IMG/VR virus record: IMGVR_UViG_3300021961_000273
Coordinates: 1-36,948 of that record
Length of the DNA: 36,948 nucleotides
DNA from: a virus
Direction: 5' to 3' (one strand)
Shown: in pieces, positions 11,213-32,323 of the stretch
Numbering within the stretch: position 1 is the stretch's first letter
Layout: each line of letters begins with the position of its first letter
Notes under the pieces: generated by a model
The model's input: the letters and a program-made list of their open reading frames with translations, nothing else
Told to the model about the DNA's origin: nothing
The model's database searches: none
Made by a program: the position numbers and the translations under genes

Positions 11213-12266
11213 AACTGTATTGGGAGTCAATCTTACTCATGATGCTGGTATATGTCAGGTAACAGACGGTAAGATTGACTGGTTCCTTTCAGAAGAGAGA
11301 GCAAGTAGATTCAAACATGATATTGATCCTACTTTTGTTCTAAATTATTTGGAAAAGGATACCAAAATTGATAAATGGGTTATCACTGGATTGCTGCACA
11401 AACCTTGGGAACCAACATACATTCGTGAATGGGCTGTTGAATTTGATTATAAGGTAGCAAAGTGGTATAAGAAACTTCATGCAAAACAAAACGATCATAT
11501 CAGTCGAATCATAACTACAGAGCATCATATTTTTCATGCTGCTGCTGGTTATTATAATTCTGGATTTGATGATGCAGTTGTTGTAGTTGCTGACGGAATG
11601 GGCAATCCATTAAAATATGATGATGATGAACCATCCTGTCATGAAGTTGAGAGTCTATATCATGTAAAGAATGGGGACTTCAAATGTATCTGGAAAAATG
11701 TTACACCAACTTTTGTTGATTGTGATCGTCCATATCCAAAATGTGATTGGATCAATCAAAATTCCGAGATCGGAATTGGAATGGTTTACTCAGCTATGTC
11801 AGTTTATCTTGGATTTGGTGAACTTGGATCTGGAATTCTTATGGGGTTGTCTGCCTATGGTAAACATGATCCAAACATAAAATCTTTTCTCATCAACCCT
11901 GGTGTAATTGATCAATCACTATTTCATAGAGTTCAACACGGTTCAAAGTTTATACCATATGAATATGTGAAATTTGAGGGTAAAGTTGAAGATATGACTC
12001 CAGAACATCCAAAGTTTCAACCCCTCGCTAATCTTGCCTGGAGGTTGCAGTTAGATTTTGAGATTTATATGACCCATCTTCTCAAGAGTGCCATCATCAA
12101 AACTGGTTGTAAAAACGTTGTATTGTCTGGTGGTTGTGCATTAAATTGTGTAGCCAACTATGAATATTTGAAACACCTTCCAGAAGGAACTGACTTGTAT
12201 GTTGAACCAGTTAGTGACGACTCTGGTATTCCAATTGGAGCTGCATATTTGGGGTATGAACTATGA
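11199..12266 (+). CDS. Carbamoyltransferase N-terminal domain only
   Basis: 355 residues related to the preceding gene: NLTHDAGICQV (11-21), EHHIFHAAAGYYNSGFDD (108-125) with His109, His110 and His113, LMGLSAYGKHDPN, and GGCALNCVANYEYLKHLPEG. The product stops just after DDSGIPIGAAYLG, where full-length enzymes enter the C-terminal domain carrying GPRALGNRS, which is absent. No frameshift remnant of that domain follows, because the next gene starts with an ATGA overlap. It therefore looks like a stable one-domain form that may act with the full-length enzyme. Whether it is catalytic alone is unknown. Confidence 0.85.
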   Translation: MTESRTVLGVNLTHDAGICQVTDGKIDWFLSEERASRFKHDIDPTFVLNYLEKDTKIDKWVITGLLHKPWEPTYIREWAVEFDYKVAKWYKKLHAKQNDHISRIITTEHHIFHAAAGYYNSGFDDAVVVVADGMGNPLKYDDDEPSCHEVESLYHVKNGDFKCIWKNVTPTFVDCDRPYPKCDWINQNSEIGIGMVYSAMSVYLGFGELGSGILMGLSAYGKHDPNIKSFLINPGVIDQSLFHRVQHGSKFIPYEYVKFEGKVEDMTPEHPKFQPLANLAWRLQLDFEIYMTHLLKSAIIKTGCKNVVLSGGCALNCVANYEYLKHLPEGTDLYVEPVSDDSGIPIGAAYLGYEL

Positions 12267-27049: not shown

Positions 27050-27853
27050 ATGTCAATAAGCGCCAAAGTCACAGAAGTAACGCCACTCCTAACGAGAGTT
27101 GCTCTCAGTTCTCACTACTTCCTGAGAATGAACGGATTGCCTGGAGAGGTAACTTCATTCTTGGCATCTAGAGGTGTTCCTACAAACTTCATTAATGGAG
27201 ATGCTGGATTGCTTTGCTATGAAGCAACTCTTCCTGGATCATCTTTGGCAACTGCTGATATCTACGGCGACTTTATGGGTGTCACTCAAAAGTATGCTCA
27301 TAGTAGAATGTATGATCAATTGACTCTTGGTTTCTATTGTGACCTTGAATATAAAATGCTAAAATTGTTTGAGCATTGGATCGAGTTTATTGCCGATGGT
27401 TCTGGGCAATCAAAGGCAAAGCCTGGTTACTTTGTAAGGATGAGATATCCAAATACTTATAAGTGTGCATCTGGTTTTTCGATCACTAAGTTTGAGAAAG
27501 ATAAGAAAGTCAAACCACTGGAATATAATTTCTTTAATGTCTTCCCCGTAGGATTGAGTGCTACTCCAGTTTCTTATGATGGGTCTCAAGTTCTCAGAGT
27601 GAATGTTACTTTGTCGTATGATACATATCAGTGCGGTAAAGCATCTAGTTCGGCTGTATCAAGAGGTGAAGATGGAAATAAAAATCCAGCAACAACTGGA
27701 ATAATTCCTCCCTCAATTATTTCTCAAGCATCCGAACCCGCTATTCAATCTATTAACAAAGAAGTAGCAGCACGTCAACCAGAAGTAGATGCTGCTGTTA
27801 ATGTTGATAGTTTTGTCAGACGAGGATCTTTGGTAAATAGAACCTTAAATTAA
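27050..27853 (+). CDS. Baseplate tail-tube initiator, gp54-like
   Basis: 267 residues. LLCYEATLPGSSLATADIYGDFMGVTQKYAHSRMYDQLTLGFYCD, HWIEFIADG, YFVRMRYPNTYKC and LEYNFFNVFPVGLSATPVSYDGSQVLRVNVTLSYDTYQ reproduce the tube-like fold and order seen in T4 gp54 (VYSVQMPENRLGY...PLVISFRMD...VSSPELSYEDNNTITTFNVTFAY). gp54 starts the tail tube on the baseplate. The C-terminus is a flexible Ser/Ala/Val tail. The alternative is another tube-family structural protein. The gene lies next to gp4 and just before gp26. Confidence 0.6.
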   Translation: MSISAKVTEVTPLLTRVALSSHYFLRMNGLPGEVTSFLASRGVPTNFINGDAGLLCYEATLPGSSLATADIYGDFMGVTQKYAHSRMYDQLTLGFYCDLEYKMLKLFEHWIEFIADGSGQSKAKPGYFVRMRYPNTYKCASGFSITKFEKDKKVKPLEYNFFNVFPVGLSATPVSYDGSQVLRVNVTLSYDTYQCGKASSSAVSRGEDGNKNPATTGIIPPSIISQASEPAIQSINKEVAARQPEVDAAVNVDSFVRRGSLVNRTLN

Positions 27854-27884: not shown

Positions 27885-28595
27885 ATGCCCTTACCAGTAA
27901 TTTCGACGCCTACTTACGATCTCATTATTCCTTCCACTGGAAAGAAAATCGAGTTTAGACCATTTCTCGTTAAAGAAGAAAAGATTCTGATTCTTGCCAT
28001 GGAGAGCGAGGATCAAAAACAAATCGCCAAGGCTGTAAGACAGGTTCTATCAAACTGCATCGTCACTAAAGGTGTTGACGTTTCTGAGTTTGCTACATTT
28101 GATATTGAACTTCTGTTCCTGAACATTCGTGGCAAGTCTGTTGGTGAGAAGATTCCTATCGTTATTACATGTGAAGATGATGGCGAAACTGAAGTCAATG
28201 TAGAACTAGATGTTGATGAGATTAAAGTAACCAAGGACAAAAATCACACAAACGTGGTTGACATTGGAAATGGTTATTTTGTCAAGATGAAATATCCTAA
28301 GTTTGATGAGTTTATCGAGAATAACTTTATTGGTGGTGGAACTGACGAATCATTTAAACTGATTGCAAAGTGTATTGATACAATCTATAATGATGAAGAG
28401 TCCTGGGATTCGGTTGATTTTACCGAAAAGGAAATGATCGAATTCTTAGAACAATTCCCCACATCTCAGTTTAAGAATATTGAGGCATTTTTTGAGACGA
28501 TGCCCAAACTTGTTCATGAGATCACGGTTACAAATCCAAAAACCAAAAAGAAGAACAAAGTTGTTCTGGAGGGTCTGGCAAGTTTTTTCAGCTAG
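27885..28595 (+). CDS. gp26: Baseplate hub protein gp26 (T4_baseplate family)
   Basis: 236 residues in the zero frame. FRPFLVKEEKILILAMES (25-42) is the T4 gp26 signature; ELLFLNIRGKSVGEKIPI and a C-terminal NPKTKKKNKVVLEGLASFF follow. gp26 acts in hub assembly. The gene ends with AGT TTT TTC AGC TAG: a T_TTT_TTC slippery heptamer sits just before the stop, and a -1 shift continues into the gp51-like frame for 63 more residues. It therefore probably makes two products, like G and GT chaperones of other tailed phages, just upstream of the tape measure. Confidence 0.85.
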   Translation: MPLPVISTPTYDLIIPSTGKKIEFRPFLVKEEKILILAMESEDQKQIAKAVRQVLSNCIVTKGVDVSEFATFDIELLFLNIRGKSVGEKIPIVITCEDDGETEVNVELDVDEIKVTKDKNHTNVVDIGNGYFVKMKYPKFDEFIENNFIGGGTDESFKLIAKCIDTIYNDEESWDSVDFTEKEMIEFLEQFPTSQFKNIEAFFETMPKLVHEITVTNPKTKKKNKVVLEGLASFFS

Positions 28596-28621
28596 CACTC
28601 TCGCATGAAACTGTAGAGAGT
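28568..28621 (+). promoter_or_regulatory. -1 programmed ribosomal frameshift signal
   Basis: Three standard parts are present in order: a Shine-Dalgarno-like GGAGGG (28568-28573), 9 bases later the in-phase slippery heptamer T_TTT_TTC (28583-28589), then after a 7-base spacer a hairpin ACTCTC/GAGAGT (28597-28602, 28616-28621). The zero-frame stop TAG follows at 28593-28595. Confidence 0.75.
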
Positions 28622-28780
28622 TACTACAAGACAAATTTTGCCTTGGTTCAGCACCATAAATATAGCTTGACAGAGTTAGAAAACATGATCCCTTGGGAAC
28701 GTGAAATATACGTTACTCTTCTGTCACAATATCTTGAAGATGAGAAACTAAAGGATCAACAGCAGAATGGCATCAGGTAG
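28589..28780 (+). CDS. gp51: gp51-like frameshift extension of gp26
   Basis: 63 codons in the -1 frame relative to gp26, from the slippery site to TAG 28778-28780. There is no plausible independent start upstream of the conserved-looking LALSHETVESYYKTNFALVQ and LTELENMIPWEREIYVTLL blocks; the only Met in frame is internal. The PWEREIY motif recalls small hub-assembly chaperones (gp51 in T4 follows gp26). The end overlaps the tape-measure start at 28767 by 14 bases. Translation is expected only as a gp26 fusion of about 298 residues. Confidence 0.65.
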   Translation, partial: QLALSHETVESYYKTNFALVQHHKYSLTELENMIPWEREIYVTLLSQYLEDEKLKDQQQNGIR

Positions 28781-30458
28781 AACTGACAACTTAATGACTG
28801 CCATTCTGGCGCACGGTAGGGACCCTGTAAGTGGAGAGTACCTTACTGCTGCTCAAAGAAAGGAACTGTTTAAAAAATCGAAAATCTCTGGATCCAAAGT
28901 ATTTGGTGGAGGAGGTGGAAGAGGAAATGTTAGGGGTGGCGGCCGCGGTGGTGGTATTGCTGGTGGAGCACTAGCAGTTAGAGACCCTGGTGCAATCACT
29001 AATAATGATATTGCCCAAAAATTAGACAACATTTATGCACTGCTCAAGGCAGATGCTGATTCGGAAAGAAGATACAAAGAAGCATCATTTGAGAAGCAAA
29101 GACAAACAAGAGAGAAACTACTTAGAGGTAGTGCTGAAAATAGTTTAGAAGGAAAGGATAAGAACAAGGCAGAAAAGGTCGAAAAGGCCAAGAAAGGAAT
29201 GCAGGTGCAGATTCCTTTCTTAGAGAAACTTGCCAAGTTCTTGATGATTTATCTGGCGGGTTGGACCACAGATAAACTCATCAATATGTTCTCTGCGAAA
29301 GCAGAAGGAAATATTGCCAAGTTCCTTGAATATCGTGATATTCTTATTCAACAACTTGGCAAGTTCTTTGCTCCAGTTGCAAATATTGCTAATGGTTTTG
29401 CGATTTGGATTGCAAAAACAACTGGAAGAATTGCTAAGTTTGCTGCAAGTGTTGGTAATAAACTTTTCTCGCCATTCTTTAAAAAGGTTAAAGATATTGC
29501 AGTTGGAATGCTCAACAGGTTGAAGAACATTGTTCAGAAACCACTTCAAACAGTTGCTGAAAAACTTGTAAAACCAGTTCTCTCCAGAGGACAACAACTT
29601 TTAGAACGAGGAAAAGAAGCAGTTGCTAAGGGTTCAAAGGGATTAACTGAGAAACTTAGTAAGTTAACTAAACCAGCTGCCAAGTTTATGGCAGGCGTTG
29701 GAAAAAGATTAAACCCGAAAGAAATACTTGGTAGAGCATTCTCTCCGATTAAAAATCTTCTCGGTAGTGCATCTGGACCACTCACAAAAGGACTCAAGAA
29801 ACTTGTTGGTGGAAATCTTTTGGGAATGATTCTTGGTGCAGGATTTGATGTAAGACAACGTTTGATTGACGGTCAATCTCCCACACAAGCTTTTCTTGCG
29901 GGTATAATTAAAGGTGCTACTTCTGGTGCAATTGCTGGTACTATTACAACTGCATTATCTGCAGCAATTCCTGGTCTCGGTCTACCCTTAGGTCTCTTAC
30001 TTGGAGGATACCTGGGAGATAAGGGTGGGGAGTTGTTAGCTGGTCCAATTGATAAGTATTTTGCAGAGAAAAGAGATCCAAACGACTTTGACAAGTGGTT
30101 TACTAATTGGGCAAACAACAGTGATGATAGTGTAAAGGCAGTTCTTGGATGGGATAATAGACAGGCTAATCCTAAACAGACTCCTCCTAAAGGTCCCGAA
30201 AATGGTAAGGGTCAAGGCGGCGGCATGGGTGGCAACATGTCTTCTGGTGCCTCAGGAGTTCCTGCATCATCTCTTACTCCATCTAGAGGATCTAAATCAA
30301 ATTTCCCAGCCGTTATTCCCATGAGTGGTGGATTTTCTCAACCACCACAATCAATTCCAAACAAATCTTTAGTTACAAATATTCCTGTCATCGAATCTAC
30401 AAATTACGATAATCCATATCTTGCCTTCTCTTACTCTGTATATAACGTATTAGTCTGA
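28767..30458 (+). CDS. Tape-measure-like protein 1 (gp29-like)
   Basis: 563 residues (T4 gp29: 590). After a Gly/Arg-rich N-terminus come long helices (residues 80-145), then FLMIYLAGWTTDKL (158-171), helical amphipathic repeats with K-P-V/KL-type periodicity, and a glycine-zipper hydrophobic segment near 350-430 (GNLLGMILGAG, AGTITTALSAAIPGLGLPLG). This is tape-measure character: it sets tail length and inserts in the host membrane at ejection. The frameshifted gp26/gp51 chaperone directly upstream is the classical tape-measure neighbour. Ends by overlapping the next ATG. Confidence 0.65.
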   Translation: MASGRTDNLMTAILAHGRDPVSGEYLTAAQRKELFKKSKISGSKVFGGGGGRGNVRGGGRGGGIAGGALAVRDPGAITNNDIAQKLDNIYALLKADADSERRYKEASFEKQRQTREKLLRGSAENSLEGKDKNKAEKVEKAKKGMQVQIPFLEKLAKFLMIYLAGWTTDKLINMFSAKAEGNIAKFLEYRDILIQQLGKFFAPVANIANGFAIWIAKTTGRIAKFAASVGNKLFSPFFKKVKDIAVGMLNRLKNIVQKPLQTVAEKLVKPVLSRGQQLLERGKEAVAKGSKGLTEKLSKLTKPAAKFMAGVGKRLNPKEILGRAFSPIKNLLGSASGPLTKGLKKLVGGNLLGMILGAGFDVRQRLIDGQSPTQAFLAGIIKGATSGAIAGTITTALSAAIPGLGLPLGLLLGGYLGDKGGELLAGPIDKYFAEKRDPNDFDKWFTNWANNSDDSVKAVLGWDNRQANPKQTPPKGPENGKGQGGGMGGNMSSGASGVPASSLTPSRGSKSNFPAVIPMSGGFSQPPQSIPNKSLVTNIPVIESTNYDNPYLAFSYSVYNVLV

Positions 30459-32323
30459 TGGCAGCCATTGTTCCCTACCGTGCTATAACTAGAACCGCTG
30501 GTGGTGGTGCATTATCCACGCAGCAGAATAATGCTGGAAAGGTAAGAAAGACTGTTATTAATATCGAGAAAGTCCTTCAGAAAAGAACAAAGGATAGAAA
30601 AAAGTTTAACGAGAAAGAAGTAAAAACAACTAGACTAGTCGGAGAAACAAAGACTAGAACAGCGGCTGAAAGCGCCATGGAAAATTCATCTAAGTTTAGT
30701 ATGAACTTAGTGAATAAGGTTCCTCAGTTTGCTGTAGATGCATTCGCAAGAATCATGAATTTCTTGGGAATATATCTGATTGGGTGGATTACCGACAAGT
30801 TGCCAAAGATTATTAATGCTATTAAAGATTTGAATCAAAGGATTCAAAAAATGGGTGAGATTGTTACCAATTTAGCTAATAAATCATTAGCGATTGTTAC
30901 ATCAATGGGCAACTTAATTGCTGCCAAGACAAAGCAAATCGCAACTCTAGACTTTAGTGATAAGAGTGGAGATGTGAAGAAAGCACAAGATCAACTTGAT
31001 GCTGCATATGATTCCATGGAATCAGACTTTGCCATGGCTCAGAAGATATTTACTGCTCCATTAGGATCATTCCCAGTCGGTGATGCACCAACTGGAGATG
31101 GTGGTATAACTAGCGATCCTTCATTCAGTAAAGAGATTACCGCAGATGAGAGAGCGGCACTTGCTGTTCTTGCAAAATATGAATCTGGTGCAGCAGGATA
31201 TGATGCTGTCAACCAGATTGGAACGAAAGGTGGTAGAGGTGTTGGAGATGGATATTCTGGCAACATCAAAGGAATGAGTCAGCACGGTGGAAGATCCTTA
31301 GAGGATATGACCATCGGAGAGATCAAGGCTTTACAAAGAGAAGAAAGAATATCAAACGCTGAATGGATTAGCAAAGGTAAATTACATGCTGTAGGTAGAT
31401 ATCAATTTATTGGTAATACTCTTCCTGGTGTTGCTGCTCGTGCTGGATTTAGTGATGATACTAAGTTTACTAGAGCCGTTCAAGATAAAATGGCAATCCA
31501 ACTCATTAAGGAGAGAGGAATTTCTCCCTGGGTTGGTCCTAGTGACAAAGCATCGGCTGCAGAGAGAGCATTAGTTAGAAAAGTTCAGTTGGGTCAAGGT
31601 GGTGGTAATGGTGGTTCTATAATTAGACCCCACAAGGTAGCACCAACTATTATGGGTGGTGGTAGAGTTCTAACCTCTGGTATGGGAATGAGAGGTTTAG
31701 CATTGTCTCCTGGAATGCACATGGGAGTTGATGTCTCTGGAAGAACTGGAGAACCATTGCAAGCATTTACCGATGGTGTTGTTGAAGCAACTGGATATCA
31801 ATCAACGGGATATGGAAACTACATAAACTGGGTTGATAGTAAGGGTGTTGGGCATTTCTATGCTCACATGAATAAACCTGCTTTTGTTAGAAAGGGAACA
31901 AGAGTTAAGAAAGGAACTATTCTGGGAGAACTTGGTAGTACCGGTAGATCGAGTGGTCCACACTTGCACTGGGAAACTGCAACTAATCCAGCAGATACTG
32001 GACGATCAAAATCAGCAGTTCTTACGAGATTTAATCCACTTTCAAAATATGGCATTGATGCACCTTTTGGTGGAACTATAAGACCAGATCCTAGTTTGGC
32101 TACTACATCTCCAACAAGTTCTGGATATGATCTTTCCCCCTTGCCCGATGCTGGGCCTCCTCTTGATATGGAAAAACTCAAGAGATTGATCAAGGAAAAC
32201 CTGGAAAAGCAGGCAAAAACTGCTCCTCCAAGATATAATGCGGACAATGTTCCATCATCGTCAAATTATGACCCTGCTAAGAACGTAAATAGTATGATGT
32301 TCAATTCACTTGCTCACCAATGA
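30458..32323 (+). CDS. Second tape-measure-like protein with lysozyme-like and M23 peptidase domains
   Basis: 621 residues. Residues 30-190 are helical and share IYLIGWITDKL (105-115) with IYLAGWTTDKL of the preceding protein. Residues about 235-370 look lysozyme/transglycosylase-like (AKYESGAAGYDAVNQ with Glu242; AVGRYQFIGNTL). Residues about 400-515 are an M23 endopeptidase: HMGVD (His421, Asp425), YAHM (His470), HLHWE (His502, His504) for zinc. A Pro/Ser tail follows. It would open peptidoglycan during DNA entry, replacing the missing gp5 lysozyme. Overlaps gp27 by four bases. Confidence 0.8.
   Translation: MAAIVPYRAITRTAGGGALSTQQNNAGKVRKTVINIEKVLQKRTKDRKKFNEKEVKTTRLVGETKTRTAAESAMENSSKFSMNLVNKVPQFAVDAFARIMNFLGIYLIGWITDKLPKIINAIKDLNQRIQKMGEIVTNLANKSLAIVTSMGNLIAAKTKQIATLDFSDKSGDVKKAQDQLDAAYDSMESDFAMAQKIFTAPLGSFPVGDAPTGDGGITSDPSFSKEITADERAALAVLAKYESGAAGYDAVNQIGTKGGRGVGDGYSGNIKGMSQHGGRSLEDMTIGEIKALQREERISNAEWISKGKLHAVGRYQFIGNTLPGVAARAGFSDDTKFTRAVQDKMAIQLIKERGISPWVGPSDKASAAERALVRKVQLGQGGGNGGSIIRPHKVAPTIMGGGRVLTSGMGMRGLALSPGMHMGVDVSGRTGEPLQAFTDGVVEATGYQSTGYGNYINWVDSKGVGHFYAHMNKPAFVRKGTRVKKGTILGELGSTGRSSGPHLHWETATNPADTGRSKSAVLTRFNPLSKYGIDAPFGGTIRPDPSLATTSPTSSGYDLSPLPDAGPPLDMEKLKRLIKENLEKQAKTAPPRYNADNVPSSSNYDPAKNVNSMMFNSLAHQ

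Follow-up and report, generated by a model that had tools for sequence, protein, structure and literature searches.

Evidence for a probable programmed −1 frameshift joining gp26 to gp51 in a putative tail-assembly chaperone gene of cyanophage-type viruses

Introduction

The G-T frameshift was described in a 2016 recoding review as widespread, with T4 as the exception (PMC5009743). In phage lambda, a short form (gpG) is accompanied by a rare −1 extension (gpGT), an arrangement that the locus analysed here probably shares; the lambda pair is flanked by the genes for the tail tube and the tape measure (PMC5009743). Members of the Vandenendeviridae and Andersonviridae, such as phage Adele, likewise shift by −1 near the 3′ end of TAC-N and carry a −1 extension of >200 bp, but these are other phage families and their conserved motif is GTTTTT, not TTTTTTC (PMC12846349). 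For T4-like phages, two later papers cite Vladimirov, Gautam & Davidson 2022 (Virology 566:9-15) for the presence of one short and one fused copy (PMC10885494) and for poly-T slippery sites in TAC-N genes (PMC12846349).

We analysed a 36,948-nt stretch of viral DNA (IMG/VR record IMGVR_UViG_3300021961_000273; hereafter the window), in which a gp26 homolog is followed by a gp51-like open reading frame (ORF) in the −1 frame. The first-pass annotation of this junction knew of no description of such frameshifting for T4-like phages; as the citing papers indicate, it was already published in 2022 and is not new here. The window shares with the published T4-like TAC-N/TAC-NC genes, as they are presented in those papers, both the gp26/gp51 families and a poly-T slippery site, whereas in T4 the short and fused forms appear to come from two distinct genes, 26 and 51, and not from one gene and a frameshift. 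The abstract of the 2022 study reportedly names genes 26 and 51 and states that frameshifting was kept in several T4-like groups. The lambda slippery heptamer is G_GGA_AAG, in contrast to the T_TTT_TTC of the window, for which we also propose an SD-like element together with a 3′ stem, and no lambda-type family was found among the window's profile matches. We add conservation statistics, a stem that covaries, the SD-like element and a single possible natural fusion in one frame.

Results

The gp26 homolog of the window (27,885–28,595; this and all features below are on the plus strand) encodes 236 aa in the zero frame and corresponds to the proposed short chaperone form, G or TAC-N (PF12322, 7.7e-73; phrog_150, 1.2e-77). 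Its 3′ end reads, in codons, GAG GGT CTG GCA AGT TTT TTC AGC TAG. Read directly from the sequence, an SD-like GGAGGG (28,568–28,573) lies 9 nt before the slippery heptamer T_TTT_TTC (28,583–28,589), which is in gp26 phase and recurs in relatives, and the zero-frame stop TAG (28,593–28,595) follows the heptamer by 3 nt, a spacing that is the same in nearly all relatives. After a 7-nt spacer comes a 6-bp stem, ACTCTC/GAGAGT, starting at 28,597, which together with an inner extension forms a putative 3′ stimulatory stem-loop (28,597–28,621). The gp51-like −1 ORF (28,589–28,780; phrog_634, 1.1e-28) would form the C-terminal portion (T or TAC-C) of the fusion chaperone, with 63 codons at 28,589–28,777 and a stop at 28,778–28,780 in a frame that is open from 28,520. 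Every element and spacing that the first-pass annotation had listed was thus confirmed in the sequence.

Programmed −1 frameshifting at T_TTT_TTC very probably lets this locus make two tail-assembly chaperones from one start, gp26 as G and gp26-gp51 as GT, as judged from sequence comparison. Most ribosomes would terminate at 28,593 and release gp26 alone, the 236-aa G or TAC-N form. A minority would pause under the influence of the upstream GGAGGG and the downstream stem-loop, allowing both Phe tRNAs to slip one base back on the heptamer, and the slipped ribosomes would read 63 more codons to give a 298-aa gp26-gp51 fusion (GT or TAC-NC) with the predicted junction peptide ...LASFFQLALSHE.... 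If the lambda model applies, the gp26 part common to both products would coat the tape-measure protein and the gp51 part would recruit tail-tube subunits. That the frameshift takes place, how often it does so, what the SD-like element and the stem contribute, and the chaperone function itself are inferences.

In-phase heptamers of the form X_XXY_YYZ occurred 39 times in the ~10,500 codons of window genes, including a few close to where a gene ends; taken by itself, the heptamer would thus be weak evidence. Those by the gene ends at 12,266, 22,375 and 18,703 were rejected as candidates, being associated with ordinary downstream-gene overlaps or followed by a short open stretch. In-phase TTTTTTC occurred once in the same ~10,500 codons, at 28,583.

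We therefore turn to the relatives, for which IMG/VR scans together with S-PM2, Bellamy and Melnitz-2 gave 143 distinct cyanophage-type junctions; these are akin, such that counts overstate independent events, and 62 lineages remain at <85% nucleotide identity. An in-phase six-T slippery run was present at the gp26 end in 143/143 distinct loci. The exact TTTTTTC was found in 141 of these, the others (L054 and Melnitz-2) having TTTTTTT, and in Melnitz-2 T_TTT_TTT abuts the gp26 stop directly. Synonymous diversity over five codons was lowest in the gene at this site (0.32 vs 0.88 overall), with only the start region near it, in line with the depression of synonymous sites that the first-pass annotation had proposed to look for alongside an invariant heptamer and phase. 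The T-run in the expected phase in 143/143 loci and the minimum in synonymous diversity remove the doubt raised by chance heptamers and, on these alignments, indicate that the junction signal is not due to chance.

The same pattern could in principle reflect selection on the gp26 C-terminus (GL.SFF) combined with AT-rich codon usage and no frameshift, given the conserved EGL and FF residues of the protein and the AT-rich composition of most of the genomes. Codon choice makes this reading extremely improbable. The residue before the slippery run varies among Ser, Ala, Asn and Asp (TCT, AGT, GCT, AAT or GAT), yet its codon ended in T in every one of the 143 loci, compared to an expected ~65%. 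The Phe pair was encoded TTT-TTC in 76/78 cases at the site and in 3/79 Phe-Phe pairs elsewhere in the gene; its second codon was TTC in 76/78 although TTT is the commoner Phe codon (70%). The slippery site was also kept in genomes of 48–50% GC (S-CREM2 and S-N03).

Upstream, the SD-like core was retained in 138/143 relatives. The Glu codon within it was GAG in 61/78 cases, compared to 31% in general usage, and where it was GAA the next codon was GGG in 13/17 cases, compared to 13% usage. Downstream, mean folding energy just after the heptamer was −12.3 kcal/mol across the 62 lineages, compared to about −2 to −8 elsewhere. Most relatives have an 11–12 bp stem starting 4–5 nt past the heptamer, in which 78.9% of cells were paired (73.6% shuffled) and 35 showed compensatory changes on both sides (10.9 shuffled); because the shuffle does not control for relatedness, these changes support the stem but do not prove it. 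Pair 10, for example, is U-A, G-C or A-U depending on the locus, with 22 inferred changes on the tree, pairing losses counted.

The stem is not the same everywhere. The window and its closest relative (L005) have a smaller stem that differs from the 11–12 bp stem; the window's hairpin is modest (z = −0.72) and is the weakest element of its signal, and that of L005 is stronger (z −2.26). S-PM2 has another strong stem (z −5.46), and no stem was found after the heptamer when L011 and L042 were folded singly. RNAalifold predicted no shared structure from a 71-sequence junction alignment; because stem position differs in some lineages, we relied instead on counting the named stem and on folding sequences one at a time. 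These differences indicate a variable stem beside a constant heptamer.

Production of the fused protein by transcriptional slippage on the T-run, in place of ribosomal slippage, was also weighed. Six consecutive T could in principle promote polymerase slippage. Such slippage would depend neither on a C at the seventh position nor on the exact codon phase, an SD-like element or a 3′ stem, yet conservation reaches all four, and we regard this explanation as extremely improbable.

Past the gp26 stop, variability among relatives by −1 codon position was 0.203, 0.105 and 0.402, which is the pattern of a translated frame as far as sequence variation can reveal it. As the first-pass annotation had claimed, the 63-codon frame of the window lacks a usable start: no in-frame ATG, GTG or TTG appears until a TTG 50 nt beyond the end of gp26. 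In 11/143 loci, the window included, none of these codons occurs up to 20 nt past the stop, while in most relatives an ATG, GTG or TTG lies close to it in the −1 frame. An independent gp51 start, which the annotation had named as a finding that would count against it, is missing from this interval in those 11 loci, with candidates present in the majority.

Such codons raise the alternative that gp51 is a gene of its own, whose translation begins by re-initiation or coupling at an ATG immediately past the gp26 stop, as GenBank records annotate it in S-PM2, phiM9 and P10VF, with the T-run incidental. We consider this highly unlikely. The window and 10 other loci have no such start, and the SD-like element, only 9 nt from the heptamer, is separated from the ATG position by ~24 nt, a distance too long for initiation. 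Codon choice moreover preserves the heptamer beyond what Phe-Phe asks for. In relatives such as S-PM2, the ATG at which gp51 is annotated to begin also coincides with the position taken up in most loci by the conserved stem. We give an even chance to a fuller version of the frameshift reading, in which cyanophage-type frameshifting is tuned by a 3′ stem that changes from lineage to lineage and masks the annotated gp51 start; gp51 would then arise solely within a fusion, beside a constant heptamer and SD-like element.

The phrog_150 profile extends into the window's −1 ORF, a hint that fused members already exist in the family. In L006 (2,501–3,394; L098 is on the same contig), gp26 and gp51 are in one frame, TTTTTTC being cut to TTTTT by a 2-base deletion relative to L099 (92% identical, site intact), with one stem base also changed. 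This could be a real in-frame fusion or a 2-base sequencing error, and we give it little weight.

Beyond the cyanophage-type loci, an in-phase T-run site (T_TTT_TTC, T_TTT_TTG or T_TTT_TTT) was present in pf16, Vibrio D527, AS-szw, 65.2, Cronobacter S13, phiM9, P10VF and OLIVR6, and in S-CREM2, S-N03 and S-CRM01 an in-phase T-run slippery site is directly followed by the stop. The gp51-like −1 ORF is unannotated in Aeromonas phages AS-szw (L087 4,706–4,872) and 65.2 (L094 4,706–4,868) and in Cronobacter phage S13 (L089 4,679–4,841). Relatives without a slippery site, another finding named beforehand as adverse, did not occur among the 143 cyanophage-type loci. In the Ackermannviridae Kuja and aagejoakim and in the similar Vibrio phage K445 the −1 frame is open after gp26 and no perfect heptamer was found. 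The gp26 ends of these three (L091, L093 and L096) offer only CCTTTTT, ATTTTC or CTTTTC.

T4 has two distinct genes, 26 on the minus strand and 51 on the plus strand, and the products of both matched the window's fused protein (blastp, 1e-8 for gp26 and 1e-7 for gp51). T4 gp26 and gp51 are paralogs (mutual match 8e-6), and T4 gp51 spans the whole fused profile (phrog_150 13–280) while also matching the gp51 profile. From this coverage and kinship, T4 appears to encode the short and fused forms separately. T4 particles do not contain gp51, which assembly nevertheless requires (PMC3004832). The S-CREM2 record marks gp203, 204 and 208–213 as virion proteins and leaves gp206 (gp26) and gp207 unmarked.

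A structural model of the L006 fusion gave a confident fold (pLDDT 91.5). Foldseek searches with it matched gp26-type viral proteins, and the nearest chaperone match in the PDB was the HK97 chaperone 2ob9, which was not significant (rmsd 2.6 over 62 columns, E 3.9). A PDB sequence search gave no match, and an NCBIfam search gave spurious weak matches only.

The gene just upstream of gp26 (27,050–27,853) was confirmed as the tail tube protein gene by profile match (phrog_45, 8.5e-38; PF23849, 5.3e-18). The ORF directly after the chaperone pair (28,767–30,458; 563 aa) had weak family matches only and no close relative among named phages; it is a tape-measure candidate by position, without similarity to a known tape measure. 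This ORF and the following one (30,458–32,323) are tandem paralogs over ~150 aa (blastp 5e-9). Bellamy genes 12 and 13 are likewise tandem paralogs, and L095 5,892–10,687 is concerned too. At the same position, S-CREM2 has two large ORFs (1,565 and 1,456 aa), virion proteins labelled endolysin, and a tail of ~418 nm; in S-N03, the first ORF after the chaperone pair is 933 aa and the tail is 138 nm. Two proteins might conceivably measure the tail jointly.

Discussion

The sequences show a junction signal that is conserved in phase, coding-type selection on the −1 ORF, a window in which gp51 has no start of its own, and homology of the two parts to gp26 and gp51 of T4. Taken with the synonymous conservation around the heptamer, these findings bear out, at the level of sequence, the first-pass reading of gp26 as G and of gp26-gp51 as GT. 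For studying how frameshift rates are tuned, the relatives offer a natural set that combines the heptamer and the SD-like element with a stem that varies by lineage.

These results correct a widespread annotation, in which gp26 and gp51 of cyanophages and their relatives are labelled baseplate hub and hub assembly catalyst and gp51 is either given a start codon or omitted. The best reading makes gp26 the short form of a single tail chaperone and gp51 its frameshifted extension. The results also support the published view that T4 uses two separate genes, and no frameshift, to encode the two forms.
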